DNA of 64,000 nucleotides from Siphonodentalium dalli (lineage: Eukaryota; Mollusca; Scaphopoda; Gadilida; Siphonodentaliidae): NCBI GenBank assembly GCA_032622095.1, contig CP136061.1:52899762-52963761 (forward strand), written 5' to 3'. Shown piece after piece: positions 1,343 through 63,406 of the stretch. Within the stretch, counting starts at the first letter, position 1. Each line of letters starts with the position of its first letter. The notes below the pieces were generated by a model that did not search any database, was not told where the DNA came from, and saw only the letters and a program-made list of their open reading frames with translations. Position numbers and translations under genes: made by a program.

Positions 1343-1477
1343 TTGTAGTGCAAGCTGTTCCACCCCAGTAATGTGTGTCAGCACACTGACATTGGTTGTT
1401 AACACACGTCATGTCTCCTTTACATGGATTCACACCAGATGGAACTCCAAATGGACAAGTTACAGTCACGTCCAACT
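1343..1477 (-). CDS. Module exon m26 (young type), last in window
   Basis: 135 nt, acceptor GTTTATCAG/AG, donor ACAA/GTGAGT; one replacement, V10F. No terminal exon, stop or polyadenylation signal could be assigned between here and the left edge, so the gene continues outside. Confidence 0.92.
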
Positions 1478-2162
1478 CTGATAAACAAAAAATAAAATCA
1501 TTCCATGATAAATGCTCGAAATAATATATAAAACGTACACAAATAATGAGAGGAGGAATGCTATTGTTATGATGGGGTAAAAGACATGCTTCAATCATAA
1601 ATCAAGTATAGTCCAACTGTGATAAAACAGTGAAAGTGTCAACGACACTGTAGCTCAAGATGGAGAGGGGAAAATATTAATGACATATTATGGACTTGTT
1701 CGGGTGTGCGAAACAATTAGGTTAGTACTCAGGCGCTATGCCAAATGTGGGAATGTAGCATTCTACTAACATCGTTGAAAATATCAAAGAAATCAACCAT
1801 ACCTCTTCATAGATATCATTGTCTGAACTACGCATAATTGTAAATATTTACATCTCTAATCGGGATGCAACAATCGGCAATAAACTAACGCAAATGATTT
1901 TGCTATTGCAGAGTAATTCCATTTAATTAATACTAAAGAACAACGGTGTGTGTGCTGGAAATTTGGATTAATATTCATAAAAATAACTAATTTGAGAAAG
2001 ATTATTCTCCATTTCTATTTGATCACCCTACCGGAGTGTTACACATCACATTAATGTCATGCATTATAGACAATTGAGCAATGAGGAATGCGGGAAGTTG
2101 AAAAAAGGAATTAACTACCATCTGAAATTTGTATTTACAGTGTAACAAAGATTAATACATAC
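1478..2162. other. Intron between m25 and m26 with an exon scar
   Basis: Starts like an alpha intron, then at 1602-1614 has GTCCAACTGTGATAAAA, a decayed exon start plus acceptor, and continues as a beta intron (GAAAGTGTCAACGACACTGT). No other feature seen in this stretch. Confidence 0.65.
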
Positions 2163-2297
2163 TTGTAGTGCAAGTTGTTCCATCCCAGTAATGTGTGTCA
2201 GCACACTGACATTGGTTGTTAACACACGTCATGTCTCCTTTACATGGATTCACACCAGATGGAACTCCAACTGGACAAGTTACAGTCACGTCCAACT
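2163..2297 (-). CDS. Module exon m25 (young type)
   Basis: 135 nt, acceptor GTTTATCAG/AG, donor ACAA/GTATGT. Two replacements at the end of the module, G39D and A42T (YWDGTTC), bring it closer to the diverged modules at that site. Confidence 0.92.
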
Positions 2298-3889
2298 CTG
2301 ATAAACAAAATCAAAACCATTTAAACAATGAAAGTGTCAATGACAACTGTAGCTCAAGATAAAAAGGTGATTATGTCGTGTATTACTGTCAATTGAGCGA
2401 ATTTATTACTGTCAATGGAGCGATTAGGAATGTGGAAAGTTAAAAAACTTTAGTATAATACAGAGATCAACCCGAAGAGCCTTATGACATTTGGAATCAA
2501 TTGGATGAAAATTGTTGGCTCTATTTAGTCATGTAAGAAGTAATAGTTCAATGTTAAGCTGACAAACGCATCACAGATGCGGGGTTTACTTTCGGTAGCT
2601 ATGTCAAACAAGGACTTGGATTGAAAATGCATCAATTGTAAATGGCTATCGTACACAACACTGTAAAGATATTGTGCAATCGCAATCAGATGTCACAAAA
2701 ATTTAATAATTATGGGTGGTAACTCCTACTAACATATGTGGACCAGGCCAGTTATCAAACCCGATCAAGACATTATGGAGCAAGACTCATATACCGAACA
2801 TTAACAAAATCAGTTGATATTTGTTCAAGAAATCGCACTGTCCCAATAAAAATTCACAGAAATAAAATAATAATGGGCCATAACTCTGCCCAATATATGT
2901 AGACCTGGCCAGTTTTTGAACTCGATAAAGACATTGTTGATTAATTCTGATACCTTACTCGTATTTAATTTCATGCAGTACTATTTTTCGCTCAGTTTTA
3001 AATTTCGCGCACTTTAAATTTGCGCAGATATCTGCGGGAATTCAAAATAAAACTGTTAAAAATATTTACATAACAGTCTTGGATCTGATGACAGTTTCAG
3101 TTCTTAATTGTTTCTGAAGACACATGTGGATATTAAACACATTCACGGTGGATTTACATCTTTTAGACCATAAGTGCATTATCGTTTTGTTGTGATGATG
3201 GATGTTTATATGCTCCACATAATTATATAGATATTGAAACAGATATGGACTGGATATTAATGAAATAAACTCGAAAAAAAAACAGAAAAACAAAACCGCG
3301 AAGGCAACAATATCTGACTCAGAAAAATCAACACAAAGACTTGACTGCGGGTTGTGATGACATAACTAACTCAGAGGAGTTGATTTCTAAGTAAAGGGAA
3401 CCAAATCACGAAGGAAGGTCACAGTACCCAGGGTAGTGGATATGGGAGATATGCATTCATGCACATGCAATCTAGAATATATGTATTTCTTACAAGCATT
3501 TCAACATCGTCGACTTTGCCCTATACCATGATTTGTACATCACTTGGCGATGAGTAATGGTTTTTAATTTCTGATGTTGGTTGACCAAATAAAAAATAGT
3601 CTGATATATGCATAATTATCCATTCAGTGTCCAACCTTTTGTATTGCATGTACTTCATTAACATAATCCTCAATCTTGTTTTCCCTGTGGTTAATTAGTA
3701 TAAACTCAGAAGTCGTACTATTTTCCCCTCAGTTTTAAATTCGCGAATTTAAATACGAGTAAGGTATATCAAATATCAACCAAATCAGTTGATATTTGTT
3801 AAAATTATCACAATCTGTAGACGCCCGCCACCATAAATGATATGGTGGTATGCCATTATAACTACAATGTAACAAAGATTAATACTCAC
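2298..3889. repeat. Beta intron block copy 1 (between m24 and m25)
   Basis: Shares with 7701-8468 and, in shortened form, 10958-11426 the phrases AAAGTGTCAATGAC, AACGCATCACAGATGCGGGG and GATATGGTGGTATGCC. It is longer than its relatives because of the element at 2953-3764. Confidence 0.85.
2953..3764. mobile_element. MITE with CCTTACTCGTATTTAA inverted ends and TA duplication
   Basis: Ends CCTTACTCGTATTTAA / TTAAATACGAGTAAGG flanked by TA on both sides (2951-2952, 3765-3766). The matching place in the sister intron (near 8338) lacks the element. Interior has no long ORF. TA duplication fits a Tc1/mariner-pogo type mobiliser. Confidence 0.8.
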
Positions 3890-4024
3890 TTGTAGTGCAA
3901 GCTGTTCCACCCCAGTAATGTGTGTCCGCACACTGACATTGGTTGTTAACACACGTCATGTCTCCTTTACATGGATTCACGCCAGATGGAACTCCAACAG
4001 GACAAGTTACAGTCACGTCCAACT
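3890..4024 (-). CDS. Module exon m24 (young type)
   Basis: 135 nt, acceptor GTTTATCAG/AG, donor ACAA/GTGAGT; common residues with two silent changes (GGC for Gly15 and GCG for Ala33). The intron upstream of it carries a Tigger-like element (4139-4675). Confidence 0.92.
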
Positions 4025-4138
4025 CTGATAAACAAAAATAAAACCATTCCATAATAAATACTCAAAATTATATATATAACGCACACAAATAATGACAGGA
4101 GGATGTCATGCTCTATCATAAAACAAGTATCGTCATTA

Positions 4139-4675
4139 CAGTAAAACCTCTCCAAACCGGACCCTCTATAAACCGAATTCCTCTCCATAACGAACAATTT
4201 GTCTGGTCCCGAATTCACCCAAGTGCCTCTATAATCTGGTAACTCTCTATTCCGAACATCGGAAGGCTTTTCTAGTCCATAAGTGAACAAATATATTAAT
4301 TTTTACCTCCAAAATCTGAACACGCTTGTTCAATAGTATGAAACTACAATACATGCGCTACATTAATATTTTCAGCGACATTTTCGAATCACAGTCAAAT
4401 TTATTGTTTACAGTCTTATCTTTATACCGGTACATGTATTATGTCTTATTAATATACCATGTTTTTATTGTTATTATTTATCTATGTTATTTATATTTTA
4501 TTCGGTACTATATTGAATAAAGTTAAATTCAATAATGAGTTGGTTGTGATTTGACAACTCTTAGTAACGACGTCCATAAATTCCGATGGTAGTGCGATTT
4601 TCTATAAACCGAACACCTCTCAAAACTGAACAGAAGGGCCGGTCCGAAGGTGTTCGGTTTGTAGAGGTTTTACTG
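4139..4675. mobile_element. Tigger/pogo-like non-autonomous element
   Basis: Inverted ends CAGTAAAACCTCTCCAAACC / GGTTTTACTG with TA on both sides (4137-4138, 4676-4677). The CAGTAAAACCTCT end is typical of pogo/Tigger elements. Interior is AT-rich, 537 bp in total, without a transposase frame. The sister intron at ~5780 (GTCATTACAGCATAGCTACA) is the empty site. Confidence 0.87.
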
Positions 4676-5179
4676 TATAACATAGCTACACACTACTTTC
4701 CATTTTGCAATTGTTAAACATAACCTTACTCTTAAGTCAATCAAATGTAATTTACCCTTGTTCATTATTATTCTTAACATGGGAGAAACCTAAAACATAA
4801 TATGCACATAGAATAGCTGACTAAATTCAAAGTTCTTATAAATATTGCATGATATTGGCAACATTATTTACCAAATTATTATGCAAATCTGGGAGTATCT
4901 ATTTATTAAATGCGTTATGTGAATTTTAACTTTTTTCTAAGACACGTTTTGTGGGTCACACTGTGGGTTTAATGTATGTAGTGGTTGTGGATACAAAATA
5001 GGTGGAGTTAGAAAAATGTCAAACATAACCAACAGTTGTTTTGTCATTTTATGATTGGCTGTCAGTATCTGACTGATACAAGAAATGGATGTAAATTGAT
5101 CGTCTAAAATTGAAATGAAGGGATAACTTGCCACCTTCAATTGAACACTAACAAAAGTGTAACATAGATTAATACTCAC

Positions 5180-5314
5180 TTGTAGTGCAAGCTGTTCCAC
5201 CCCAGTAATGTGTGTCAGCACACTGACATTGGTTGTTAACACACGTCATGTCTCCTTTACATGGATTCACACCAGATGGAACCCCAACTGGACAAGTTAC
5301 AGTCACGTCCAACT
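5180..5314 (-). CDS. Module exon m23 (young type)
   Basis: 135 nt, acceptor TTTTATCAG/AG, donor ACAA/GTGAGT; common module residues. Separated from m22 by a 186-nt intron that matches the 172-nt introns of m17-m19. Confidence 0.92.
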
Positions 5315-5500
5315 CTGATAAAACAATGAAAGTGTCAATGACTCTGTAGCTAAAGATGGAGAGGGGATAAAATATTAATGTCATGCATTATAGTCAATTC
5401 AGCAATTAGGAATGCGGAACGCTGAAAAAAAGGGAAAATTTCCATCTGAAATTTGTAATCTGAAATTTGTAACTACAGTGTAACAAAGATTAATACTCAC

Positions 5501-5635
5501 TTGTAGTGCAAGCTGTTCCACCCCAGTAATGTGTGTCAGCACACTGACATTGGTTGTTAACACACGTCATGTCTCCTTTACATGGATTCACACCAGATGG
5601 AACTCCAACAGGACAAGTTACAGTCACATCCAACT
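5501..5635 (-). CDS. Module exon m22 (young type)
   Basis: 135 nt, acceptor GTCTATCAG/AG, donor ACAA/GTGAGT. No amino acid change from the common module; GAT instead of GAC for Asp3 is shared with m17-m19. Confidence 0.92.
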
Positions 5636-5932
5636 CTGATAGACAAAAAATAAAACCATTCCATAATAAATACTCAAAATTATATATATAATGCACACAA
5701 ATAATGAGAGGAGGAATGTCATTGTTAGGATAGGGGACAAGACATGTCATGCTTCAATCATAAAACAAGTATTGTCATTACAGCATAGCTACACACTATC
5801 TTCCTTTTTGCAATTGTTATACATTACCTTATAACTAAATAATCAAATGTAATCACATGTAATTACCCTTATTAATTATTATTCATAACATGAGAGAAAC
5901 CGAAAACATAATTTGCACATTGAATAGCTGAC

Positions 5933-6203
5933 TTTATTACATGCTTGATCCTAGAATTACAGAGTTCCTGGCTTCCTGGTTACATATTTATAAATCCGTA
6001 TGGAACAAATTATGGAATGTACGTTCCATACGCATCCTGTTGACATCACACAACATAAATGACGTTCCCTTCAACCATGAAACCGAAAATATAAAATAAA
6101 AGTATCATCACACATGACAAAACAAGCCCTGTATGCCTGAATAAATGCTGTAGGTATGTTTTCTTTAACTTCATGATTCTAGGACAGGTGACGTGTAATA
6201 AAC
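5933..6203. mobile_element. Small inverted-repeat element
   Basis: Imperfect inverted ends TTTATTACATGCTTGATCCT and the complement near TCTAGGACAGGTGACGTGTA (6177-6196). Absent from the sister alpha intron near 4815, where AATAGCTGACTAAATTCAAA is uninterrupted. Confidence 0.65.
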
Positions 6204-7565: not shown

Positions 7566-7700
7566 TTGTAGTGCAAGCTGTTCCACCCCAGTAATGTGTG
7601 TCAGCACACTGACATTGGTTGTTAACACACGTCATGTCTCCTTTACATGGATTCACACCAGATGGAACTCCAACTGGACAAGTTACAGTCACGTCCAACT
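7566..7700 (-). CDS. Module exon m21 (young type)
   Basis: 135 nt, acceptor TTTATTAG/AG, donor ACAA/GTGAGT. Protein identical to the common young module. It shares the TTAG acceptor variant with m20, consistent with the two having been copied together as one two-exon block. Confidence 0.92.
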
Positions 7701-8468: not shown

Positions 8469-8603
8469 TTGTTGTGCAAGACATTCGACCCCAATAATGT
8501 GTGTCAGCACACTGACATTGGTTGTTAACACACGTCATGTCTCCTTTACATGGATTCACTCCAGATGGAACTCCAAATGGACACGTTACAGTCACGTCCA
8601 ACT
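8469..8603 (-). CDS. Module exon m20 (young type, most diverged copy)
   Basis: 135 nt, acceptor TTTATTAG/AG, donor ACAA/GTGAGT. Replacements V10F, G40R, T41M and A42S (WGRMSC) leave all six cysteines in place. Frame open, splice sites good, so it appears functional. Confidence 0.9.
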
Positions 8604-10038: not shown

Positions 10039-10173
10039 TTGATGTGCAAGCTGTTCCACCCCAGTAATGTGTGTCGGCACACTGACATTGGTTGTTAACA
10101 CACGTCATGTCTCCTTTACATGGATTCACACCAGATGGAACTCCAACAGGACATGTTACAGTCACATCCAACT
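10039..10173 (-). CDS. Module exon m19 (young type)
   Basis: 135 nt, acceptor TTTTATCAG/AG, donor ATCAA/GTAAGA. The penultimate Thr pair reads Thr-Ser (ACTS). The following intron contains a complete Helitron/HINE-like element (9288-9978). Confidence 0.93.
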
Positions 10174-10345: not shown

Positions 10346-10480
10346 TTGTAGTGCAAGCTGTTCCACCCCAGTAATGTGTGTCAGCACACTGACATTGGTT
10401 GTTAACACACGTCATGTCTCCTTTACATGGATTCACACCAGATGGAACTCCAACTGGACAAGTTACAGTCACATCCAACT
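10346..10480 (-). CDS. Module exon m18 (young type)
   Basis: 135 nt, acceptor TTTTATCAG/AG, donor ACAA/GTGAGT. Encodes the same residues as m17. Its flanking 172-nt introns are almost identical to each other, the mark of a very recent tandem duplication. Confidence 0.93.
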
Positions 10481-10652: not shown

Positions 10653-10787
10653 TTGTAGTGCAAGCTGTTCCACCCCAGTAATGTGTGTCAGCACACTGAC
10701 ATTGGTTGTTAACACACGTCATGTCTCCTTTACATGGATTCACACCAGATGGAACCCCAACTGGACAAGTTACAGTCACATCCAACT
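10653..10787 (-). CDS. Module exon m17 (young type)
   Basis: 135 nt, standard acceptor GTTTATCAG/AG and donor ACAA/GTGAGT. It encodes the commonest young module without replacement. First of three exons spaced exactly 307 nt apart (10653, 10346, 10039). Confidence 0.93.
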
Positions 10788-11426: not shown

Positions 11427-11475
11427 TTGTAGTGCAAGCATTTCCATCCCAGTAATGTGTCAGCACACTGACATT
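11427..11475 (-). pseudogene. Module exon m16, 3' fragment (interrupted, frameshifted)
   Basis: The last part of the same exon, with an intact donor ACAA/GTGAGT. Besides the insertion, it lacks two bases of the GTGTGT run present in the other copies, which would shift the frame. Both defects make the exon unusable, but because the exon is phase-symmetric, skipping it would leave the rest of the gene in frame. Confidence 0.9.
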
Positions 11476-12498
11476 ATACAGTTATCGCCCGCGATTGAGT
11501 GAGACACGGGGATTTGTCGCCCGCTCGAGACCTGGAATGTCACCCGAGGGCCGCCAGGCCAGAGGGTGACATTCCAGGTCGAGAGCGGCGACAAATCCCC
11601 GTGTCTCACGAAAACAAGGGTGATAACTGTTTTGTTATCCGACAATGGAGTACACACGAACCTCCTTAATAGCAGGCATAAATGCGCGCATACATTCTTT
11701 AATCCAGTTGGAAAAGTTAATTTTATGTTGGAATCATCGCTATTTAGAAAATAAAACATTCATAATCTGGATCAATTAACAGACCCGTCATTTGCGCAGA
11801 TATTCTCCGGTCAGTTTGCTGGTTGCATTGTGGAAATCGGTTCACGGAAAGAGGAGTAAAGCAATTTCGAAGTTGAGTAGCCATGCAGCGAAATGTTCGG
11901 TTTCGTTTCAAATGAGCGTGAAGACGCCGACAGACGTGTTAATTTCCAGAATGCTCAAATGTGGAACTAACACGTTGTAGTAGTGCAAAAAGAAATTGAC
12001 ATCTGTCACAGATCGTTACGCAACATACGGGTATTCTCTGAAGTCTGATGAATGTATTGAAGAAAAGAAATAATCAATTGATAAACAGCAAAGAGTGGCT
12101 ATTTGATCTAGTACATAAACGTAGTTGTAACGTATGTACAGGTCCAATATGAATATTACACCTTATAACAGATATGTGTCTGTGATGACACCATTTATAC
12201 ATAGCGTGCTTTAATTGCAAATAAAAAAACACACAATTATGCAAATTAGCAAACACCACAGTTCGCGGTTGTTATGAAACAGTGGGGTTTATAAAAACAG
12301 TGTTTTTCGAAATTATCAGAGAGCTTTCAGAGAATCTCTGCGCGGTGAGTTCTTCGTAGTTCTATGTTTACTGGTAACAGCTGAGCGGTCAATAACTGAG
12401 ACAATGTTACCCTCGAGGGTAATATGGTGATTTATCGCCCGCCATGTGACGCACTCTCAGCCAATCAGAAGAGAGGAAAATGGGATGAAGGATAACAA
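11476..12498. mobile_element. ~1-kb foldback element inserted in exon m16
   Basis: Its left end is a near-perfect ~165-bp palindrome (11480-11640) with arms GTGAGACACGGGGATTTGTC and complement. A ~750-bp non-repetitive interior follows, then a right end that again contains TTATCGCCCGC (12432-12443). Intact paralogous exons give the empty site ACATTGG; the junctions leave ACATT / TGG, so the target duplication is at most 1-2 bp. More GC-rich than its surroundings. Short ORFs inside (e.g. 61-62 codons) are unrelated to any transposase I recognise. Confidence 0.8.
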
Positions 12499-12583
12499 TG
12501 GTTGTTAACACACGTCATGTCTCCTTTACATGGATTCACACCAGATGGAACTCCAACTGGACAAGTTACAGTCACATCCAACT
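12499..12583 (-). pseudogene. Module exon m16, 5' fragment (interrupted)
   Basis: The first 85 nt of a young-type module exon, with intact acceptor GTTTATCAG/AG and codons from LDVTVTC through the CVNNQ region. The exon then runs into a ~1-kb foldback element. Its remaining part is at 11427-11475. Confidence 0.9.
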
Positions 12584-14176: not shown

Positions 14177-14305
14177 TTGTAGAACAAGCCTCGCCATCCC
14201 AATAATCATCTGACGAAATGCACCCACACATTCCATTTGAACAAATGAGATGACCAAAACACGGGTCCTCAGGTGTTGTTGAGCAAGTCTCAAAGATCAT
14301 CTTAC
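14177..14305 (-). CDS. Module exon m15
   Basis: 129 nt, phase 1-1 with acceptor TATTCTAG/GT and donor CTACAA/GTTTGT, the latter non-optimal at +3 and +4. Spacing 7-5-4-1-11 with MIFETC, EDPC, HLIC, GMCGC and DYWDGEAC. A second AG five bases in would break phase, so the outer acceptor is preferred. Its downstream intron is a degenerate tandem repeat (13300-14150). Confidence 0.82.
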
Positions 14306-14990: not shown

Positions 14991-15119
14991 GTGTTTGGCA
15001 TGAGGTGCCATTATAGTAGGTGTTGGCCTCAGCACACTTACACACACCAAAATCACATTTTAGTTCCCCTGCGCAGGAATCATCTGCTTTGTTGAGGCAA
15101 TCCGACATGAAAGGCAGTT
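14991..15119 (-). CDS. Module exon m14
   Basis: 129 nt, phase 1-1, acceptor AATTGCAG/AA, donor AACAC/GTAAGC. Spacing 7-5-4-1-11 with LPFMSDC, DDSC, ELKC, GVCKC and TYYNGTSC (Tyr replaces Trp). The opening residues match m6. Confidence 0.86.
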
Positions 15120-18126: not shown

Positions 18127-18255
18127 CAGGAAGACAGGTGCTGCCGCTCCAGTATAATGTTTGATGAGGGCAGTCACAGACGTCACCAATACAAATCAGT
18201 GTCCCAACACAAGGATTATCTGGAGTAGTGGGACACTCCACATTCCACGAAAGCT
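18127..18255 (-). CDS. Module exon m13
   Basis: 129 nt, phase 1-1, acceptor TTTTGTAG/AG, donor TCCTG/GTCAGT (a weaker donor, C at +3). Spacing 7-5-4-1-11; landmarks LSWNVEC, DNPC, GTLIC, DVCDC, LYWSGSTC. A diverged module lying between young-type m12 and diverged m14, which shows that the young copies were inserted among older ones. Confidence 0.85.
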
Positions 18256-18864: not shown

Positions 18865-18999
18865 TTGTAGTGCAAGCTGTTCCACCCCAGTAATGTGTGT
18901 CAGCACACTGACATTGGTTGTTAACACACGTCATGTCTCCTTTACATGGATTCACACCAGATGGAACTCCAAATGGACAAATTTCAGTCACGTCCAACT
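18865..18999 (-). CDS. Module exon m12 (young type, variant start)
   Basis: 135 nt, acceptor GTTTATCAG/AG, donor ACAA/GTGAGT. It carries three changes near Cys1: V6E, T7I and V10F (reading EICPFG), making it the most diverged of the young type at this end. The downstream intron contains an ATC/CAT trinucleotide tract and then m13. Confidence 0.9.
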
Positions 19000-19206: not shown

Positions 19207-19341
19207 TTGTAGTGCAAGCTGTTCCACTCCAGTAATGTGTGTCAGCACACTGACATTGGTTGTTAACACACGTCATGTCTCCTTTACATGGATTCACACC
19301 AGATGGAACTCCAACTGGACAAGTTACAGTCACGTCCAACT
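19207..19341 (-). CDS. Module exon m11 (young type)
   Basis: First exon, in transcription order, of the young LDVTVTC type: 135 nt, phase 1-1, acceptor GTTTATCAG/AG, donor ACAA/GTAAGA. Young-type spacing is 10-5-4-1-10, with CKGDMTC, NNQCQC and CADTHYW as landmarks. Relative to the commonest version it has Ser for Gly after YW (YWSGTAC). It lies 207 nt upstream of m12 and shares its intron sequence. Confidence 0.92.
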
Positions 19342-20964: not shown

Positions 20965-21093
20965 TTATGACACAGTTAGTATTGTCCCAGTATAGGCTAT
21001 CATCAGCACAAAGACATCTGCCTTCTCGACAGGATAAATTGATTGCGCATGGATCCTCTTCGATTATGCCACATGTCTCATTGAAGGATTTCC
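20965..21093 (-). CDS. Module exon m10
   Basis: 129 nt, phase 1-1, acceptor AAATTTCAG/GG, donor GTCATAA/GTATGT; it lacks a long flanking ORF, so it is easy to miss. Spacing is 7-5-4-1-11. It begins GKSFNETC, carries EDPC, NLSC, EGRCLC, ADDS and LYWDNTNC. Close to m9, so the Thr-rich exon sits inside a pair of duplicated modules. If the Thr-rich exon is spliced to it, the junction codon is T/GG (Trp). Confidence 0.86.
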
Positions 21094-24163: not shown

Positions 24164-27037
24164 ATTTATGTTTTGCTGGCATCACTGTTGTTGGAGTGGC
24201 TGTAGAATCCGTCATCTTGGTTACTGTTGTTTGTATTGTTGTTGATGTTGTCGTTATACCCGTTGTTGATGTAGTTGGTGTTGCTATCGTTGTTGTTGGC
24301 GATGTTGTTGCCACTAAAATTATACTTCTTGCGCGTGACCTCTCTTCTTCATCTCCATCTCCTCGTGTCCCTTCTTCCCCCCATTGTATAGTCGATGTAC
24401 TTTTTGTTCTTGTGGCTATGGTGGTCGTCGAACTCTGCATGACATCTGGTGCTTTTAATGTGGTTACTCCTGCCAGGGATATGGTTGAAGCTGCTGGCGT
24501 GGTAGTTGAGGGTGTGATTTTATTGTCACCCGTAGTTTGATTGGCTGAAACAGTTGTTGTGGGTATGCTCTTCATTTCAGTTGTTGGATTGGCTGAAACA
24601 GTTGTGGGTGTGGTCTCATTTTTAGTTCTCATTTGATTGGCTGAAATTGTAGTTGTAAAAGTGGTCCCAATTGTTTCGAGTAAAGACATTGGTCTAACCA
24701 GTCCCGCCGCCAGGTTAGACGTTAACGACTCAATCCATTTTGCTTTGATCTCCTCAGTTTTCTCTGTATCATCCCCACCCTCCCGATGTATCTCCAATGG
24801 TAATCTGGAATTAGTCGTTGACTTTGCTATTACCATAGTAAGAGTAGTTATTGGTGTTGCTATGGTAGTCGTAGTTGTAGTAGTAGTAGTTGTTGTTATA
24901 GTAGTTATGGTAGTTATTGTTGTTATCATTGTTGTTTTTGCTGTTGTTACTGTAGTCGTAGTAGTTGATTTTGCTGTTGTTACTGTAGTCGTATTAGTTG
25001 TTTTTGCTGTTGTTACTGTAGTCGTAGTAGTTGATTTTGCTGTTGTTACTGTAGTCGTAGTAGTTGATTTTGCTGTTGTTACTGTACTCATAGTAGTGGT
25101 TTTTGCTGTTGTTGCTGTAATTGTAGTAGTTGATTTTGCTGTTTTTGTCACGGTAGTTGGATTAGCAGCAGCAGTTTTTGGTGTTGTTTCTGTCATCGTT
25201 TTCGCTGTTGTTGGTACCACAGTTAAGGAAGTTAACATAGTTTCATTAGCATTTGGTTTTATAAGACCTGTTTCCTCATGAGCATCCGTATCATCATGAG
25301 TGCCTTCTGTTCGGATTGTTGATTTAACCGCTGTTGCTGCCATCCCCGTTGTTATTGATGGTGTACTACTTATTTCTATTGGTGTATTTGCAGCTACAGA
25401 AGTATTGAAACCTGAATTGTTTGTCACTTTCAATGTTTGCAATGCAGGCGGTGCAGTCGTGCCATTTTTTTCTGTTCTACCTCCCATTTTTTCTGTTGCT
25501 GCTAATGTCAGATTTCTCAATTCATTTTTCTCAGTCGGTTCCTTTTCATCTGTGTCAATTGTTGTCTCATTTCCCACCACTCCTATGTTGTTTGTTGCTG
25601 ATGTTGTTGTAGTTTTCGACAATGTTTGATTTGTTATCAATGAACTCGCATTAGATTTCTTCATCTCGATAACATCACTTTCATCAACACCAACTGTTTT
25701 TATATCTGACACTGAAGCATTTGAAGTCATTTTTGTTGTTGATTCTAGTATTGCTGTAATTGTCAGCATTGATGTTGAAGAATTTGAAGTTAATATTTTC
25801 AATACAGATGTATTTCTCTCCATTGCCTCCACTTCGTCATCGCTGACTCTTGCTATAGACAGTGTAGCATTTGTCACTAATTTCGTGGTTGGTTCTAATT
25901 TAATAGAGTTTCCCACAATCCCTGTTGTAGATTCTAGTCTCACCAATGCAGAAGAATTTGATAATAATTTCACAGCTGATTCATTTCTAGATGCCGCTTC
26001 TATCTCATCATCACTAACCGTTTTTACATCTGGCAATATAGTAGTATTCACAAACATTGTTTTGGGTTCCATTGTCCTTAAATTTGTTGAATCCACATTT
26101 GATTTTTTTATCTCAACAACATCTATTTTATCACCACCCACCATTGTAATATTAGAATGTATAGGATTTGCCATTTTGGTTGTTGACTGAAATCTTGCGA
26201 TTGTTGTTGTTGAATTAGGAGTTGTTGTTGTTGACTGCAATCTTGCGATTGTTGTTGTTGTGTTAGAAGTTGTTGTTGTGGACTTCACTGAATTTGTTAC
26301 AGAGAAATTCTTTTCTACAGGTTTTTCAACTCTCTCCATTTGCTCAACACTGGCTTTTGTCGTACTTTTCAGAGTGGTATTTGACTTCTTCTCAGTTGTC
26401 GTTTTTGATATGGTTGTAGTTGGAATTGTTGTGGACTGCACTGAATTTGTAGTAGAGGAACTCTTTACTAAAGGTTTTTCAACTGCCTCCATTTCCTCGA
26501 CATGGGCCGTAGTCATAGTTGTCTGAATAGTATTCGACTTAAAATTCCCATTTGTTGTTGTTGATATGGTAGTAGTTGGCATTGTTGTTGATGTTGTTGT
26601 CATGGACTGTACTGAATTTGTAGTAGAGAAACTCTTTACTAAAGGCTTTTCAACTGCCTCCATTTCCTCGACATGGGCCGTAGTCATAGTTGTCTGAATA
26701 GTATTTGACTTAAAATTCCCATTTGTTGTTGTTGATATGGTCCCTATAACTCCCTTGATCCCTTCAACTGTAGTCGTACTTGTCAGAGTAGCATTTGGCT
26801 TCATCTCAGTTGTTGTGAGTGTTGTTGTTGTTGGTACTGATTCTGCTAAATGTTCTTCCCGGCGTTTCCTCATCAATATTTTTTTCTCATAGGTGTTTGT
26901 CCAATGAGTGCCCTCTGTTGGCCCAGTCAGGGCAGTATTTGGTATGACTCCTGCCGCCAATGGTAATGATGCTTTTGATAATTTTGCTACATCGAATGAG
27001 AATGGACATGAATGTGAGTTTTGTAAATTACAATCAA
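24164..27037 (-). CDS. Large Thr-rich mucin-like exon
   Basis: Single open frame of 958 codons' length (2,874 nt, a multiple of 3). An in-frame TGA lies just upstream of a candidate acceptor (GACATACAG/TT, end 27037). The candidate donor AAAT/GTATGA (24158-24163) sits before the in-frame TGA at 24153-24155. Used this way the exon is phase 1-1 like its neighbours and would join m9 to m10. If the donor is not used, the protein ends at CMM and the window holds two genes. The first ~15 residues contain two Cys; the rest is almost Cys-free, dominated by Thr with Ser, Asn, Val and Lys, and has many N-x-S/T sites. Internal repeats: an ~11-residue TTTTVTTAKST unit (residues ~630-700), a 170-bp direct duplication near the start, and spaced acidic motifs such as SDDEVEAMERN. 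Expected to be a heavily O-glycosylated extracellular stalk or gel segment. No known conserved domain recognised. Confidence 0.8.
24940..25150 (-). repeat. 33-bp (11-codon) Thr minisatellite in the Thr-rich exon
   Basis: About six to seven tandem units of roughly 33 bp, each encoding a TTTTVTTAKST-like block. The last units grade into pure Thr/Ile-Thr stretches. The unit length is a multiple of 3, so copy-number change keeps the frame. Length polymorphism between individuals is likely. Confidence 0.85.
26458..26739 (-). repeat. 170-bp direct duplication inside the Thr-rich exon
   Basis: Two near-identical in-frame blocks (about 26458-26569 and 26628-26739) each encode the sequence around AHVEEMEAVEKPLVKS, with TTISTTTNGNFKSN before it. 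Very few differences are visible, so this is a recent in-frame gain of Thr-rich sequence. Confidence 0.85.
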
Positions 27038-28436: not shown

Positions 28437-28690
28437 CAAGCCTTGAAATAGTGTGCCTGTCATTTGCAGAATGAAGTCCCCATAGGGTGAATTTAGTGAT
28501 GCTACCCCACATAGCGGGCTAGCATCACCAAATTCACCCTCTGGGAACCTCATTCTGCTGAGTTGTAAGCAGAATGAGGTCTCCAGAGGGTGAATTTGAT
28601 GATGCTAGCCCGCTATGCGGGGTAGCATCACTAAATTCACCCTATGGGGACCTCATTCTGCAAATGACAGACACCCTATTTCAAGGCTTG
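28437..28690. mobile_element. CAAGCCTTGAAATAG-family element, copy 3
   Basis: Exact 8-bp target duplication GTTTTATT (28429-28436, 28691-28698). Palindromic interior as in copy 1. Confidence 0.9.
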
Positions 28691-31437: not shown

Positions 31438-31929
31438 AGCCTGCAAATAGTGTGTCTGTAAGTTGCAGAATGAGGTCCCCAGAGGATGAATTTGTGATGC
31501 TATCCCACACAGCGGGCTAGCATCACCGAATTCACCCTCTGGGGAACTCATTCTGTTTGTGTGCGGGATAGCATCACAAATTCATCCTCTGGGGACCTCA
31601 TTCTGTTTATGTCCTCATCTTCTGGGAAGTATCTATAGTCTCAAATTAACATTAGTTACTTTTTCCCTTCTGGGAAGTTTGTATATCCCCTAATTTTCAG
31701 AAGATAAATTGCATTTATAATCGAGGTGACTTAATTATGGGTGAACATCACCAAGTTCAACTGGGGAACTTCAATCTGATCCTAGGTCTCCCATAGCAGT
31801 TGAGGCCTAAGCAAAATGAGGTTCCCAAAATATGAGTTTGGTGATGCCAACCCACTGTGCTGGATAGCGTCACTAAATTACCCTCTGGGGACCTCATTCT
31901 GCAAATGACAGATACACTATTTTCAGGCT
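31438..31929. mobile_element. CAAGCCTTGAAATAG-family element, copy 4 (decayed)
   Basis: GCAGAATGAGGTCCCCAGAG at the left and GGGGACCTCATTCTGC at the right; ends degenerate and no clear duplication. Confidence 0.75.
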
Positions 31930-32023: not shown

Positions 32024-32149
32024 TTGTAATACACGTCTTCCCATCATAGAATTTAGTAGCGTCAGCACAGCGGCATCTACCTTCTTGGCAAGATAAATCT
32101 GTTTGGCATGATTTTGGATCCGAAGTACATGTTACATTGAAGGATTTGC
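32024..32149 (-). CDS. Module exon m9
   Basis: The shortest module exon: 126 nt, 42 codons, phase 1-1, acceptor ATACAACAG/GC, donor TTACAA/GTAAGT. Spacing is 6-5-4-1-11. It starts GKSFNVTC and is clearly a sister of m10 (GKSFNETC) on the other side of the Thr-rich exon: both share LSC, EGRC and CAD. KFYDGKTC replaces the usual YWNG ending. Last module before the Thr-rich exon. Confidence 0.87.
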
Positions 32150-35233: not shown

Positions 35234-35404
35234 GTGTGTCACATGCAGTACCATTCCAAAATTCATCGGTAATAGGTATATCCATATCCACATAGTAATC
35301 ATAATCCTCAGATGTTTTACACAAACATTGATTGTTAAAACAGATTAGTCTCCCCTCACATGGGTCAATGCTATGCAATTGGCAAGCAGACTGGTATCCT
35401 AATC
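35234..35404 (-). CDS. Module exon m8, with a long acidic/Tyr loop before Cys6
   Basis: 171 nt, phase 1-1, using the acceptor TTGTTTAAG/GA. A second acceptor six bases further in (ATTAG/GA, exon end 35398) would also keep phase and drop two residues, so a NAGNAG-like choice is possible. Donor ACAC/GTAAGT. Spacing is 7-5-4-1-25: the last loop holds an extra ~14 residues rich in Asp and Tyr (DYDYYVDMD) before FWNGTAC. The core (DPC, RLIC, NNQCLC) is standard, and NNQC also appears in the young array. Confidence 0.84.
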
Positions 35405-40921: not shown

Positions 40922-41056
40922 TTGGGCCGCAGTGTGTCCCATTCCACACAGGTAGTGGCGCTGTACATGTACACTGTTTGTTTATACAAGTTAAATCCCA
41001 GTCCTGGCGACATGAATCCTCAGGAACAGTTATACAGTTTGACTGGAAACCAGTTT
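40922..41056 (-). CDS. Module exon m7
   Basis: 135 nt, phase 1-1, acceptor TCTATTTAG/AA, donor GGCCCAA/GTATGT. Spacing is 7-7-4-1-11; two extra residues between Cys2 and Cys3 (RQDWDLT). The YW pair is replaced by VW (LPVWNGTHC). The acceptor and the upstream intron are duplicated twice more just outside the exon (41057-41250), giving three candidate acceptors in tandem. Confidence 0.87.
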
Positions 41057-44817: not shown

Positions 44818-44973
44818 TTGGTCTACAGTTTGTTGCATTCCAGTACATGAGACCATCAGGACATAGACAGATTCCAGCACCACAAGTCAATTCTCCAACA
44901 CATGTGTCCTCCAGGTGAAGTATACCTTTTGGGGTCTCCATTACAAGATTGCAATTTGACTTAAATGGCAGTT
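44818..44973 (-). CDS. Module exon m6
   Basis: 156 nt, phase 1-1, acceptor TCTTTCAG/AA, donor AGACCAA/GTGAGT. Spacing is 16-5-4-1-11; the Cys1-Cys2 loop is nine residues longer than usual. The opening LPFKSNC is close to m14 (LPFMSDC), suggesting a common ancestor despite 30 kb separation. MYWNATNC carries a potential N-glycan site. Confidence 0.86.
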
Positions 44974-50902: not shown

Positions 50903-51034
50903 TTGGTGCACAATGTGTGGAATTCCAGTAGGTTTCTACATCTGTACAAATGCACTGGAAATTTTCACAAGACAGATCACTAATGCACAGATTCGTTGCA
51001 TTGCATGGTTCTTGGAACTCCTGTTTTGGTATGT
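50903..51034 (-). CDS. Module exon m5
   Basis: 132 nt, phase 1-1, acceptor CTTATTAG/AC, donor CACCAA/GTAAGT. Spacing is 5-5-4-1-11, so the Cys1-Cys2 loop is the shortest of the set (NATNL, with an N-glycosylation sequon). SDLSC and TYWNSTHC match m1-m4 closely, with a second sequon (NST). The intron side of the donor runs straight into GTAAGTACAGTAATGCCC, the terminus of the window's palindromic TA-flanked repeat; see findings. Confidence 0.87.
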
Positions 51035-52847: not shown

Positions 52848-52982
52848 TTGGTGGGCAATGGGAACCATTCCAGTACCGACTGGAATCAGGGCATAAACAG
52901 GTGCCACCAATCGAACATACCAAATCACTCCTACACATTTCATCCGGGTTATGGATAGTGCAGTTATCTTGGTAATTCTTCT
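52848..52982 (-). CDS. Module exon m4
   Basis: 135 nt, phase 1-1, acceptor TTTTCAG/AG, donor CCACCAA/GTAAGT. Spacing is 8-5-5-1-11; one extra residue between Cys3 and Cys4 (SIGGT) is unusual for this array. RYWNGSHC ends the module and contains a possible N-glycosylation site (NGS). Neighbouring modules m3 and m5 are about 1.8-1.9 kb away on either side. Confidence 0.87.
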
Positions 52983-54777: not shown

Positions 54778-54921
54778 TAGCAATACATGCATATTCAAAA
54801 GTATCGAAGTATGTATTCAAGTTGTTAAAAAATAGACAGCGGCATAATCCATTATCACATGTAAGGTTGGAAACACATGCATCAGAAATTTCTGGAGGGC
54901 ATGACTCATTGAATATTCTCT
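54778..54921 (-). CDS. Module exon m3
   Basis: 144 nt, phase 1-1, acceptor TTTTTTCAG/AG, donor TGCTA/GTAAGT. It encodes a six-Cys module with spacing 7-5-4-1-16. The segment between Cys5 and Cys6 is five residues longer than usual and Asn/Phe-rich (LFFNNLNTYF), keeping an aromatic pair in place of YW. FNESC opens the module, as in m10 (FNETC). An N-glycosylation sequon (NES) sits just before Cys1, and a second (NLT) precedes Cys3. Half of a palindromic mobile element lies ~65 nt beyond the donor. Confidence 0.85.
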
Positions 54922-58219: not shown

Positions 58220-59500
58220 TAATAAATTTTGATGCTAATGGGCCAGAGTAGCCACATAATATGATCCCACTCAGTTCTGTTTCAACGTTCTGCCAATTTC
58301 CGTTCAAAGACAGACAGAATCCCAAAAGAAGTTTTCGGCAAAAATTCATACTGCATCCCTTAAACTGATTTGTCATTCCTCATAATGTACTGCGACAACC
58401 AGAATATAACATTTAGTTATTAGTTGATTAAGTAGCATGTTTAATAACCAAGTGAGTCACAATTTGCAACCTTTTTGGAACAGCTTGTAATAATGTTCGG
58501 AATAAATATGACAAATAAACCTTTTACCATATTTGGTTGCCATTTTGTAAGCCATCTTGATTCTTGAGTAATTTTTTCTAAAACATCTCAGTGTCAATCA
58601 TTTAAGATAGATCAAAAATAAAAATCACATTTGATACCAAAGATAGTTCCATTTTACTTTAAAAAATGGTGCAAACCTGAAATGTTATTTTTTTCCCGAT
58701 TTTGATGCCAAGTTTGTGTAAAAAATCCCATAATTCTGGTAATTTCAGTGGTTAAAATAGTAAAAGTTAATCAATGTGCATCATAAATGTTAGTATTCAA
58801 TGTATATAAGACAGGAATAGTCAATTTTATTCATCAACCACAACTTATAAGCGGTTGCACGACACCCTGGTGCAATATTTACCATTTTTCATATTTTGGC
58901 CGCCATTTTGGCAGCTATTGTAAGCCAAAGTGACAATTTTGATACCATTGAGTCGAAATATTCATAAGAAATAGAATGCATCACTTCCATTACACAGTCC
59001 TGCCAATTTTTGATGAAATATGACTAGAATCCCAAATTGTGATTTTTTTTGTGAAATGTTATACCACGTTCTGTAAACTCAATTTTTTGAATGATCGGAA
59101 GGGCTGGGGATCTCACTTATGGCATATTTTATTTCCCCGATGGTCTGTTAACATGCTAAATACAAAATAAAGTCACAATTCTCAACTAGTTCCAAACAGC
59201 AGAAACTTATCTTAAAGATATCAGTAAAAAACGTAACATTATCCACTTCCGGTCGCCATTTTGACTGCCATCTTGGGCGGTGTGTTCCAATTTTGGCATC
59301 AAAATGTGGTGTTATGTCTTATATGACACGATATTATGACTATAATTGCATCAAATTGCAACAAACTGACTTAACAGAAAACGCCATCTTGAATTACAAA
59401 AAATGCTCAAAGAGGATTTTAGCGGATTTTGGATATGTTATAGAGGAGATAAACCAATCTAGTCCGAATTTATTCTAGGTTGACCCTAAAATTTTAGTTT
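58220..59500. other. Intron with low-order repeats
   Basis: Several weakly similar segments containing GCCATTTTG and TCCCAAAT-type text; no gene. Confidence 0.45.
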
Positions 59501-59511
59501 ATCGACCAGAC

Positions 59512-59638
59512 TAACAGTGAAGTGATCTCGAAAGTCTCCACATCATGTCTCATCGAGAAGATGAGATCCCAGATCAGATCCGGGATCTGACCTTCTCAAT
59601 TCGGCATGATATGGAGACTCAGATCACTTCACTGCAGT
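59512..59638. repeat. ~125-bp palindrome
   Basis: CAGTGAAGTGATCTCGAAAG and its complement, centred near CAGATCCGGGATCTG, 60 bp from the donor of m2. Foldback MITE or structured remnant. Confidence 0.85.
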
Positions 59639-59696
59639 GATAATCTCTATTTATCGCGCTATAAAATAAAAAAACATAGGGGTTAGATATACTTAC

Positions 59697-59948
59697 TCTG
59701 GACACAATTGGCTGTGTTCCAATACGTATCAGTATTGGTACAAACACAATACCCGCTAAAGCACTGTAGATCACTCACACATGGGTCATACCATTCTGGG
59801 GAAATGGATGGTAATCCCAGTGTTGGTGGTATCATCGGTAGTATGATCGGCTCTTCTTCCATTTGCACAGCACGTTTAACAACCTGAATCACATCAACCG
59901 GAATCCCTTCTGAAGTCCGCACAAGACAAGGATCTGTGTAATTCCTCT
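59697..59948 (-). CDS. Module exon m2, with an inserted proline/acidic loop
   Basis: The longest module exon: 252 nt, 84 codons, phase 1-1, acceptor TTTACAG/AG, donor CCAGA/GTAAGT. The module has 48 residues between Cys1 and Cys2 instead of about 7. The extra loop starts basic/hydrophobic, passes through an acidic MEEEP stretch and becomes Pro-rich (PMIPPTLGLP). It then rejoins the standard core: YDPC, SDLQC, GYCVC, TYWN, C, at spacing 5-4-1-11. The exon stays open through the loop and both splice sites are good, so it looks functional. The loop could be an exposed linker or cleavage site; that is a guess. Confidence 0.85.
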
Positions 59949-60029
59949 CTGTAAATGAAGTATTAAGATGGTAATGATACGACATATGAACAATCCAGCC
60001 AAAGAGGTGACAACAGCATGTGCACGAAA

Positions 60030-60770
60030 TATTTTAACCTCTAAGGGAGTTTGGATTTGCCACCCCCTACCATTTTGCACAAACTTGTTAACACCCTCTA
60101 AGGGAGTTTAGGTGTGCCAAACCACCCCACCAATTTGCACAAAGTTTTTTAACACCCTCTAAGGGAGTACGTCTGTGCCACCCCAACTGCACAAAGTTTT
60201 TAACACTCTCTATGGGAGTACTTGTGTGCCACCCCACCCTTTGCACAATGTTTTTAACACCCTCTGAGTGAGTTTGGCTTTGCCACCCGACCCTGATTTT
60301 GCACAAAGTTCTTAACACCCTCTAAGCTAGGGAGCTTGGGTTTGCCACCCCCTCCATTTTGCACAAAGTATTTACAACCCTCTAAGTGAGTTTGAGTTTG
60401 CACCCCCCTATTTTGTGCAAAGATTTTAACACCCTATAGGTGAGTTTGGTTTTGCCAAGGCCCCCCCCCCAACCTCATTTTGCACAAAGTATTTAACACC
60501 CTCTAATGGAGTTAAGGTGTGCCACACCCCTGTACCCCTTGAACAAAGTTTTTACAACCATATATAGAGGGAGTTTGTGTGTACCATCCCCCTATTTTGC
60601 ACAAAGTTTTTATCACCCTGTAATGGAGTTTGAGTTTGCACCCCCCCCCCCCAGTCTGCACAAAGTTTTAAAGTTTTTAACACCTTCTAAAGAAGGGTGT
60701 GTTTAGTACCCCCCACCTCCCCCATTTTGCACAAAGTTTTTAACACCCACTAACTTTTGATCAGGTCAAT
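60030..60770. repeat. ~60-bp minisatellite, about 12 copies
   Basis: Unit contains TTTTGCACAAAGTTTTTAAC, ACCCTCTAAGGGAGTTT and a C-run (CCACCCCC). Length varies between copies. Confidence 0.92.
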
Positions 60771-61220
60771 GATTGTAGCTATGTGTGTCTGTTATATAAT
60801 GTAACAACAAAACCAGACATTGTATGTCAACTATATAGAATTTATTCAAATCAACTTTAAGCAAAGGTCAAAATTCACATTTCTCAGGCCCATGTGCATG
60901 CAACTTTTTTTATATGCTTTGTAAAACTTTGGACAAATTTGTAATCATTACAAAATAATTGTGGTATGTTTTTTAAATAAAGTGTGATAGAAGGGATCCG
61001 TTTCAAATTTCATATTCATTGCTGTAATTGGTAACTATGTTCAAACATGTGTTAAACAAGTGATGTATTGCATCTATAAACTCAGTAAAACATGTGTCAA
61101 TGATATAGTATTAGGTAATTTTTTACAAAATAAATCACACGAAATCTATTAACTAATGTTTATGAACATCTGTTCTGGTAATAATGGCCACAGGCAACAA
61201 TTAATTTTATTATGAAGCAC
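60771..61220. other. Intron without recognised feature
   Basis: Nothing supported. Confidence 0.5.
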
Positions 61221-61221
61221 A

Positions 61222-61440
61222 ACCCTAAATAATCGACTCCTTAACCACAGCGAAATCATGGGTAATTTTTCATGATTTAGTCGGAATTATGGCTTGTTGC
61301 CATTCATCGGAAGGCTCTCACTGAGAGCTCTCAGTGAGAGCCTTCCGATGAATGGCAACAAGCCATATTTCCGACTAAATCATGAAAAATTACCCATGAT
61401 TCTGCTGTGGTTAAGGAGTCGATTATTTATAGCATTACTG
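61222..61440. mobile_element. CAGTAATGCCC palindrome, copy 8 (left tip lost)
   Basis: Hinge region has a second small inverted duplication (CTCTCACTGAGAGCTCTCAG). Confidence 0.87.
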
Positions 61441-61673
61441 TATAAACTATCGCCAGTAGAACATGGTGTGTGGGGTTCTTTGTTTATTACACGATAGACC
61501 GACATCTCCTAACTGACCTTTTCCAGTGTTTTTCTAATAATTAGTCTGTGGTATATTCCCTGTTCATGTGTTATGTTTTATTTTAGAGTTCTGGATTCAT
61601 TGACGAAGTCAACACCTTTGGGATTGTGTGACATTTATGTCGTTTCATTTCACATGTGTGTGAAACAGCTTGA

Positions 61674-62696
61674 ATAAAAGGCCGTCCGGCCACAGTGTCC
61701 CCCGAAAAAGTGGCTTCATTGGGGGCATCAGCTTTTCTGAAAAAAATAACAAGGACACTAAATCCGATACTAAATTTCAGAACAAAATGGGTGGATTGTA
61801 CCCATATTCGAACTTGATCTGTATTTCGAGCTGATAAACTGATATACCAAATTTGATTCAGATATGATCACACAAACTAAAGTTATATCATCCGGAAACC
61901 AGAAATTGACATGATTCTAAGTCGTAAAAGGGCCATAACTCTCACAAAAATAGGCAGAGCAAACCCATATTTGAACCTGACCTGTATTTTGGGCTGATAT
62001 ACTATCATACTAAATTTGATTCAGATTTGATCACACAAACTAAATTTATCATCCGGAAACCAGAAATTGACAGGATTCTAAGTCAAAAAAGGGCCATAAC
62101 TCTAGCAAAAATGGGCGGATTGTACCCATATTCGAACTTGAACTGTATTTCGAGCTGATATACTATCATTATTATAACTCTCACAAAAATAGGCAGAGCA
62201 AACCCATATTTGAACCTGACCTGTATTTTGGGCTGACATACTATCATACTAAATTTGGTTCAGATATGATCACACAAACTGAAGTTATCATCCGAAAACC
62301 AGAAATTGACAGGATTCCAAGTCGAAAAAGGGCCACAACTCTCGCAAAAATGGGCGGAGCAAACACATATTCGAACTTGACCTGTATATAGGGCTGCTAA
62401 ACTCACATACCAAATTTGGTTCAGATATGATCACACAAACTGAAGTTATCATCTGGAAACCAGAAAATTACAAGATTCAAAGTAAAAAAAGGGCCATAAC
62501 TCTCGCAAAAATGGGCGGAGCAAACCAATATTCGAACTTGACCTGTATTTTGTGTCTGATAACCTCACCTATGAAATTTGCTTTTGATCTAATAACCGAA
62601 ACTAAAGTTATCATCCGGAAACCATTTCCGGACGCACACACGCACGGACACTGGCTATTTTAATAGTCCCCCGAAAAGAAAGTTTCGGGGGACAAA
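61674..62696. mobile_element. Helitron/HINE-like minisatellite element, copy 2
   Basis: Start AAAAGGCCGTCCGGCCACAG-TGTCCCCCG, five to six ~160-bp cores with GGGCCATAACTC and TTATCATCCGGAAACCAG, end hairpin CCCCCGAAAAG/CTTTCGGGGG. Same termini as 9288-9978 but a different core repeat. Confidence 0.78.
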
Positions 62697-62959
62697 AATA
62701 TGACACATGCTGAGGCAGAGTAAATGTCAGGTTGTTCAGTATTACAGACGTGTAATTAGATAGATAAAATGACATAAGTGTGCGAACCTTCTTACAAAAC
62801 CAATAGGTGTATAATAAAGCAAGGTCAATGCCATTTACGTCATGTGACATCGATGTCGTTCCATCCCACACATGCTTGAAAAATATGACACGGGCTGAGT
62901 CAGAGTGAATGACATGTCTTTTAGTATTACAGGCATTTAATAAAGCCATTTTCTGCCTA

Positions 62960-63225
62960 CATCGCGGGAGCACATTAAGAGCTACCTGAAATTTTGTGAA
63001 AACCCTGTGCCAGCAGCATTCTCTCATATATGGGAGTATCCCATAGGGAGCCTCGCATATATAAGAGAATACATTGGCCTAACAATATTTACCTTGACCT
63101 TGTAAGCCAGTGAATTCTCATATATATGCGAGACTCCCTATGGGAGACTCACATACATAAGAGTGTGCATTGGCACAGGATCTTTAATGATGCACCAGCG
63201 CAGCTTCCGTCATGAATGGTTTAAA
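62960..63225. mobile_element. TTAA-type element, degenerate
   Basis: AAAACCCTGTGCCAG at left; CAGGATCTTTAATGATGCAC at right; TATATGCGAGACTCCCTATG palindromes inside. Ends close to the donor of m1. Confidence 0.75.
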
Positions 63226-63277
63226 GCAGGAGCAATGTATTGCCCCCTATTTATGACAGGCCTGGGTAGAAACTCAC

Positions 63278-63406
63278 TTGGTACACATTTGAGTCCATTA
63301 AAATAAGTCTCAGGATCTGGACAACTGCAAATTCCAGCCATGCATATCAGGTCACTATAGCATGGATCCTGCTGCAATATTTGACAAGATTCTCCAGGCC
63401 GACGGA
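63278..63406 (-). CDS. Module exon m1 (six-Cys EB/EGF-like module)
   Basis: First module exon of the minus-strand gene in this window; earlier exons must lie to the right. The acceptor is TTCCAG/TC and the donor CCAA/GTGAGT. The exon is 129 nt, phase 1 at both ends, open throughout. Cysteine spacing is 7-5-4-1-11, with QQDPC at Cys2, SDLIC at Cys3, GICSC at Cys4-5 and TYFNG before Cys6. This spacing is the commonest among the diverged modules. The fold is assigned by Cys pattern only (EB or truncated EGF-like), so an extracellular location is inferred. Function unknown. Confidence 0.85.

Follow-up and report, generated by a model that had tools for sequence, protein, structure and literature searches.

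What kind of gene carries a long run of short, uniform cysteine-rich exons in the scaphopod Siphonodentalium dalli, and what would such a run be for? The window, i.e., the whole 64,000-nt stretch of DNA analysed here, had been given a preliminary description as a 62-kb array of exons in one gene, with a layout suited to an extracellular protein that generates a repertoire or varies in length. An EGF exon lies upstream, and HRM, GAIN-like, GPS and seven-helix exons lie downstream on the same strand, and this arrangement makes it most likely that the window codes for a portion of an adhesion GPCR ectodomain.

Cysteine-module exons of the window

All 25 intact minus-strand module exons were located within 63406..1343 and have the properties first reported for them: they are flanked by AG and GT, have lengths divisible by three, start and end in phase 1, and carry six cysteines each (25/25 in every case; Table 1). 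When joined, with exon 8 in its shorter form, they give one open frame of 1,169 aa; the two possible acceptors of exon 8 lie 6 nt apart. Exon 2 is long (252 nt), and a 26th copy is broken by an insert of 1,019 bp. No target duplication is claimed for this insert, the 5-base BLAST overlap not being clean in the letters. No match to any of 4,227 Rfam families was found.

Table 1 Features of the window, in window positions (coordinates beginning with C1, here and in the text, are contig positions)
Feature	Position	Strand	Remarks
EB-like module exon 1	63278..63406	-	phase 1-1
EB-like module exon 2	59697..59948	-	phase 1-1; long Cys 1-Cys 2 loop
EB-like module exon 3	54778..54921	-	
EB-like module exon 4	52848..52982	-	
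EB-like module exon 5	50903..51034	-	
EB-like module exon 6	44818..44973	-	
EB-like module exon 7	40922..41056	-	
EB-like module exon 8	35234..35404	-	alternative phase-1 acceptors at 35404 and 35398
EB-like module exon 9	32024..32149	-	
Thr-rich mucin-like candidate exon	24164..26986	-	940 aa with 28% T and without Cys; weak splice sites give phase 1-1
EB-like module exon 10	20965..21093	-	
Module exon 11, recent-copy type (LDVT...)	19207..19341	-	
Module exon 12, recent-copy type	18865..18999	-	
EB-like module exon 13	18127..18255	-	
EB-like module exon 14	14991..15119	-	
EB-like module exon 15	14177..14305	-	90% identical to exon at C1:52895611
Broken 26th module exon, first part, recent-copy type	12495..12583	-	
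1,019-bp high-copy repeat inserted in broken exon	11476..12494	+	
Broken 26th module exon, second part	11427..11475	-	
Module exon 16, recent-copy type	10653..10787	-	
Module exon 17, recent-copy type	10346..10480	-	
Module exon 18, recent-copy type	10039..10173	-	
Module exon 19, recent-copy type	8469..8603	-	
Module exon 20, recent-copy type	7566..7700	-	
Module exon 21, recent-copy type	5501..5635	-	
Module exon 22, recent-copy type	5180..5314	-	
Module exon 23, recent-copy type	3890..4024	-	
Module exon 24, recent-copy type	2163..2297	-	
Module exon 25, recent-copy type	1343..1477	-	

The modules are of extracellular type and on one strand, as proposed. Against Pfam EB (PF01683), the joined window modules match at E=1.9e-19 (69.9 bits vs the 24.3-bit gathering cut-off) and an exon of 69 modules elsewhere at the locus matches at E=1.8e-110 (361 bits). 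Single modules, with alignment A2 covering 51/136 of them, match this family at E≤1 in 24/51 cases (best 5.3e-5) and have no match in 27/51; a stretch whose coordinates were wrong, as its stops showed, was excluded from the alignment. The comparison with EB and EGF families that the preliminary description had suggested left EB alone as a match of the joined modules; no EGF-type family appeared in more than 5/51 single modules at E≤1, and an EGF assignment was rejected. Eight conserved cysteines characterise the EB family and we found six in 62/62 single-module exons, and the modules are therefore called EB-like here. Searching the genome with the Pfam EB profile gave 8 matches, none of them at this locus (150/289 candidates scored). 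By sequence, the joined modules had no PDB match at E≤1. Predicted structures reached a pLDDT of 86.4 for a single module and 89.7 for three modules, the latter modelled from alignment A4, in which some rows are still one module off register; alignment A3 was discarded because overlapping stretches were out of register. In fold comparisons with the PDB there was no match at E≤0.001, and matches at E≤10 numbered 15 (single-module) and 212 (three-module); we therefore assign the modules to no named fold.

Extent of the locus and the receptor core

The 62-kb array stands inside the window, but its extent was understated, since modules span 227 kb (C1:53090515 to C1:52863747) and are cut by the window on both sides. 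The 136 modules lie in 64 exons, one with 69 modules (8,901 nt, open throughout) and another with five. Run over the surrounding 258 kb, a profile built from window modules and others of the locus detected 142 domains at E<1, 141/142 on the minus strand. A reversed-sequence control of 326 kb gave a single domain at E<1 and none at E<1e-3, which places the array above chance. Nine more recent-copy exons lie past the window edge (C1:52899628-52896308), and the relative of exon 15 at C1:52895611 is on the far side of most of the recent-copy cluster. In the extended model, 67/67 exons have AG/GT borders and phase 1-1, with introns of up to 19 kb, and their joining yields a single 7,021-aa frame without a stop. 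The claim that exons could be skipped or copied without a frameshift is thereby upheld for the exons of this model.

The order on one strand is EGF exon, module exons with the Thr-rich frame among them, HRM, GAIN-like, GPS and seven-helix exons. The 5' EGF exon scores above the cut-off of its profile (25.0 vs 21.5 bits); a scan that favours module-like codon make-up revealed neither a first exon nor a signal peptide in the 38 kb above it. In the 47/1,677 candidates that were scored, the Thr-rich open frame (27044-24156) had no other match at E≤0.001. Its 2.8-kb exon may belong to the receptor, although the frame, which ends at a TGA just past its weak donor, could be a terminal exon instead.

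In the joined 3' pieces, 7tm_2 matches at 1.6e-32 over pieces of six exons, from TM1 to the start of TM7, GPS at 2.2e-9 and HRM at 1.1e-5, exactly at the cut-off; the best solved relatives in the PDB are ADGRD1 (6e-40) and ADGRL3 (7e-36). These joined pieces are approximate, as seven residues after HRM2 were omitted and a few piece-end residues, e.g., before TM4, are probably intronic. The GPS exon carries the cleavage-site pattern CACDHYTNFAILM, with Cys-Asp-His-Tyr-Thr at the predicted point of cleavage. Pfam GAIN remained below its cut-off (E=0.35) and is absent from the matches listed for the joined 3' pieces, and the GAIN-like pieces have alignable counterparts among the exons of twelve paralog loci. 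Exon phases (HRM1 1-1, HRM2 1-0, GAIN1 0-0) are compatible across the modules, HRM and the first GAIN-like exon. An exon linking GAIN1, which ends in phase 0, to GAIN2, whose frame needs phase 1, was not located, nor was the exon after TM6 and the start of TM7, and thus the rest of TM7. The genome holds 27 GPS matches (62/62 candidates scored), one of them within the 326 kb read (C1:52821803-52821907). The initial view of one array in one gene had seen the array itself and missed that the gene probably continues far beyond the window, together with the receptor core, the 69-module exon and the Thr-rich exon.

A probable single receptor, recent growth and alternative readings

On this order of exons, we consider it probable that EGF exon, modules and HRM-GAIN-GPS-7TM core make up one long adhesion receptor. 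A single gene, as originally described, is thus probably right, and we infer that all exons are spliced into one mRNA, predicted to exceed 22 kb, with a predicted product of about 7,450 aa, or about 6,500 without the Thr-rich exon. Several genes could instead share the 227 kb. The 3' end would then hold an adhesion GPCR of ordinary size with few EB modules, and upstream of it would lie one or more separate genes for secreted proteins of EB or mucin-like type; one such protein could, for example, end with the Thr-rich exon. The stop of the Thr-rich frame fits such an arrangement, as do other EB-like clusters in the genome apart from the GAIN-like/GPS/7TM receptor loci, but 67/67 exons lie on one strand in phase 1-1 and give a joined frame free of stops, the locus has a single GPS match, and casual rather than systematic inspection revealed no gene starting or ending within it. 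We therefore regard several genes as unlikely.

As parts of one giant receptor, the EB-like modules would form a long outer arm, seemingly extended by well over a hundred copies of one small module, and the GAIN/GPS part would hold a tethered agonist that pulling on the arm, or binding to it, may expose or shift; by analogy, the predicted receptor could sense pull. The array appears to have grown recently in two places by different routes, namely duplication of exons together with their introns (21 near-identical exons) and tandem repetition within one exon (57 alternating A/B modules), and this growth would have lengthened the arm with little change in sequence. The 21 recent-copy exons encode 10 distinct proteins, 89–100% identical, with 10/21 exactly the same. 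Pooled over non-independent pairs, pN/pS is 0.134 for the recent copies (21/21 intact ones), 0.296 for 29 A modules and 0.267 for 28 B modules (57/69 modules of the long exon). Purifying selection is present in both recent arrays. Flank divergence of the copies was set aside because the flanks are not all homologous. Outside the 69-module exon, 43/45 other compared modules have no relative more than 50% identical and are thus old and single; the list of nearest relatives covers 135/136 modules, exon 2 being omitted for its length.

These figures speak against the proposed repertoire, in which, as with the cassettes of Dscam, the choice of exons would vary the surface used for binding. Symmetric exons permit any choice and the old modules are strongly divergent, but the copied exons are so nearly identical in protein that choosing among them would give hardly any new surface, and diverse alternative cassettes like those of Dscam were not found among the 21 recent copies, so that we hold a repertoire-generating receptor to be very improbable. 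A decaying array of functionless tandem copies deserves still less credence: one of the 26 copies in the window is interrupted by a dispersed repeat, and an intron contains an inverted, stop-bearing piece of the 69-module unit at C1:53018560-53018730, but 136 modules are intact, the 8.9-kb exon is open, and selection acts on both recent arrays.

Within a single giant receptor, the phase symmetry of every exon means that an exon lost, skipped or copied would alter the length of the arm but leave the frame intact. Length variation is plausible. A more tentative idea, possible though doubtful, is that the locus encodes the longest GPCR yet seen and carries a natural length dial, whereby a number of modules that varies between animals or cells would tune the response of the tethered agonist to pull. 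The number could change through germline gain or loss of copies, both of the 21 near-identical exons and of the A/B exon, or through frame-neutral skipping, and the ligand-binding end would be left unaltered.

Comparison with known receptors and paralogs

Keyword searches of an open-access library gave no report of EB-like modules in an adhesion GPCR. If the exons form one receptor, EB-like modules would be added to the ectodomain repertoire of adhesion GPCRs. The locus also shows a single module type that grew by two routes, through copies of an exon with its intron and through repeats inside a single exon. GAIN-like exons matching this locus occur with GPS/7TM exons at twelve other genome loci. 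The nearest paralog (C1:204.53-204.58 Mb) has an HRM (8.4e-7), and the 10 kb upstream of its core contain no clear EB-like module (best profile E=0.022). Another paralog (C1:72518062-72529288) has one giant repeat exon 13 kb upstream on the same strand, with an open frame of 2,988 codons; unlike the modules described here, its repeats are EGF (79 domains) and not EB, and the exon's membership in the receptor is putative.

ADGRD1 (GPR133) and the latrophilins (ADGRL/CIRL) are akin to the predicted receptor as its nearest solved 7TM/GPS matches, and their ectodomains are not known to carry an EB array. Human ADGRV1 (VLGR1) likewise belongs to the adhesion class and builds a very long ectodomain out of many exons, but its ectodomain modules are Calx-beta repeats, whereas EB-like modules and an HRM are found here. 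Its largest isoform is given as 90 exons and 6,306 aa in PMC8268283; the joined frame of the extended model exceeds this, and the molluscan protein would be the longer of the two if its exons form one receptor. Evolution seems to have repeatedly altered length at this locus with the module sequence nearly constant. For the Drosophila adhesion GPCR CIRL, PMC5548486 describes a reduced mechanosensory response upon artificial lengthening of the ectodomain. Natural length changes at near-constant sequence would therefore make this link between length and mechanosensitivity testable on natural variants.

Extent and exon structure of the array

All 25 intact module exons reported in the preliminary description were recovered in the window (C1:52899762-52963761), on the minus strand, with AG/GT borders, phase 1 at both ends and six cysteines each, and they form a single open frame when joined; the 2.23-Gb assembly of nine contigs was taken as given. 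The extent of 62 kb proved too small. In one continuous 326-kb stretch (C1:52797762-53123761, C1 being contig CP136061.1), read together with 10 kb further 5', modules span C1:53090515 to C1:52863747. A module profile gave 142 matches at E<1 over 258 kb, 141 of them on the minus strand, and the reversed 326-kb region yielded a single match at E<1, with nothing below 1e-3; both results argue against chance. Once the two halves of a broken exon, a decayed fragment lying inverted on the plus strand and three weak matches with E between 0.08 and 0.46 are set aside, the count is 136 modules in 64 exons, of which 62 carry one module, one carries five and one carries 69.

Positions of the multi-module exons and of the downstream receptor core (C1)
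Feature	Position	Length	Strand	Phases
Five-module exon	52873686-52873033
69-module exon	53073220-53064320	8,901 nt
HRM exon 1	52863113-52863009		same as modules	1-1
HRM exon 2	52855375-52855281		same as modules	1-0
GAIN-like exon 1	52845751-52845560		same as modules	0-0
GAIN-like piece	near 52840959-52840816		same as modules
GAIN-like piece	near 52835849-52835706		same as modules
GPS exon	match 52821907-52821803		same as modules
TM1 exon	near 52820961		same as modules
TM2 exon	near 52819179		same as modules
TM3 exon	near 52809932		same as modules
TM4 exon	near 52804853		same as modules
TM5 exon	near 52803875		same as modules
TM6 + start of TM7 exon	near 52801266		same as modules

The model begins at an upstream EGF exon, ends with the first of the HRM exons and comprises 67 exons, each bordered by AG/GT, free of stops and a multiple of 3 nt long. 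Their joined frame encodes 7,021 aa, or 6,081 aa without a Thr-rich, mucin-like candidate exon (940 aa; window:24164-26986, minus strand), whose splice sites are weak and whose frame runs into a stop. The phase-1 split codon encodes Lys at 39 and Arg at 13 of the 66 junctions, so a basic residue usually lies between modules. In the region of the 69-module exon the opposite strand, too, is open over 2,500 codons (L008:559-9459), probably as a by-product of the repeated stop-free 258-bp unit.

A 26th copy in the window is interrupted by a 1,019-bp insert (window:11476-12494), and gives a natural example of how a symmetric exon may be lost with the frame kept. The insert is a young, dispersed repeat, since it has many copies elsewhere, which in most cases share 95-99% identity across the first 665 bases (at least 157 matches; 40 of 2,255 candidates scored). 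Further elements include two adjacent intronic frames on the plus strand, 289 and 320 aa long (L013:525-1391 and 1395-2354), perhaps a mobile element and without a Pfam match at E<=0.01; a 117-bp tandem repeat of 3.9 copies, open on both strands (window:47905-48355), whose PapD_N match (0.0019) is under the cut-off and looks like chance; and a recurrent element (GCAGAATGAGGTCCCC...) with inverted-repeat letters in introns at window:16232-16427, 28466-28661 and 31512-31612.

Module family and growth of the array

The Pfam comparison proposed in the preliminary description gave a divided answer: joined modules match EB, as does the 69-module exon (1.8e-110), whereas of 51 modules searched singly, 27 gave no such match at E<=1. 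A genome search with Pfam EB listed eight matches, none in this locus (150 of 289 candidates scored), and the EB family has eight cysteines, against six here; for these reasons we call the modules EB-like. Small AlphaFold2 module models were confident, and a PDB search with them returned no significant match. Weaker EB-like matches lie mostly on C1 (0.62, 39.08, 79.5, 81.4-82.3, 84.7-85.2, 97.8, 98.4, 246.3 and 246.9 Mb), with others on C3 (211.1 and 224.0 Mb); none coincides with paralogous receptor loci (66 of 140 candidates scored in one search).

With the 69-module exon and the recent (LDVT) set put aside, 45 modules were compared; 43 of them share no more than 50% identity with their closest relative, and the remaining two form a 90% pair flanking most of the recent set. 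The latter consists of 21 intact, near-identical exons, 12 within the window and nine beyond its low edge, which were duplicated together with their introns (tightest spacing 300 bp) and encode 10 distinct proteins (pN/pS 0.134). The A/B set comprises 57 alternating modules within the 8.9-kb exon (pN/pS 0.296 and 0.267). Judged from these ratios, both young sets are under purifying selection; both add length and, as far as their sequences indicate, not much varied repertoire, so that the repertoire-generating role suggested earlier is not borne out. An inverted, stop-bearing A/B fragment lies in an intron (C1:53018560-53018730, plus strand, in stretch L013); because it spans a module junction, the contiguous, intronless form must have been copied.

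Receptor core and paralogs

Downstream of the array, the joined 3' pieces, whose ends are approximate, match Pfam 7tm_2 (1.6e-32), GPS (2.2e-9) and HRM (1.1e-5, exactly at the cut-off), and the best solved relatives are ADGRD1 and ADGRL3. Starting at phase 1 in the modules, splice phases interlock across the HRM exons and up to the first GAIN-like exon, which is in phase 0. One of the 27 genome-wide GPS matches lies within the locus, with a His-Tyr-Thr pattern at the predicted cleavage site. The Pfam GAIN match is below significance; the GAIN-like pieces align with exons at twelve other loci. Within the region read, no connection from the first GAIN-like piece to the second was found, nor an exon after TM6, a tail or a first exon.

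The nearest paralog (C1:204.53-204.58 Mb) also has HRM (8.4e-7); further out lie cysteine-rich frames, rhamnose-binding-lectin-like by eye only, and a Pfam search with one piece of these listed nothing. At C1:72.5 Mb, a 2,988-codon open exon with 79 EGF domains (C1:72495702-72504665, plus strand, L028) shares its strand with a paralogous GPS/7TM locus that begins 13 kb further downstream and, being linked by position only, may belong to that receptor. Together with the 69-module exon, it raises the possibility that this receptor group gained a giant repeat array within a single exon on two occasions, from different modules.

Comparison with known adhesion GPCRs

We infer that all exons, from the EGF exon through the receptor core, are spliced as one mRNA encoding one receptor, in which the module array would form a long arm ahead of the tethered agonist. 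Frame-neutral skipping of module exons is plausible by analogy with mouse adhesion GPCR genes, for which PMC6667449 gives a mean of 18 abundant transcript variants per gene. In Drosophila CIRL, according to PMC5548486, the tethered agonist is required and autoproteolysis dispensable, and mechanosensory responses gradually fall as the N-terminal fragment lengthens; by analogy, the array would set the mechanical range of the receptor. The predicted protein of ~7,450 aa (7,021 plus ~430 from the 3' pieces), or ~6,500 aa without the Thr-rich exon, compares with 6,306 aa from 90 exons for the largest human ADGRV1 isoform as given in PMC8268283.
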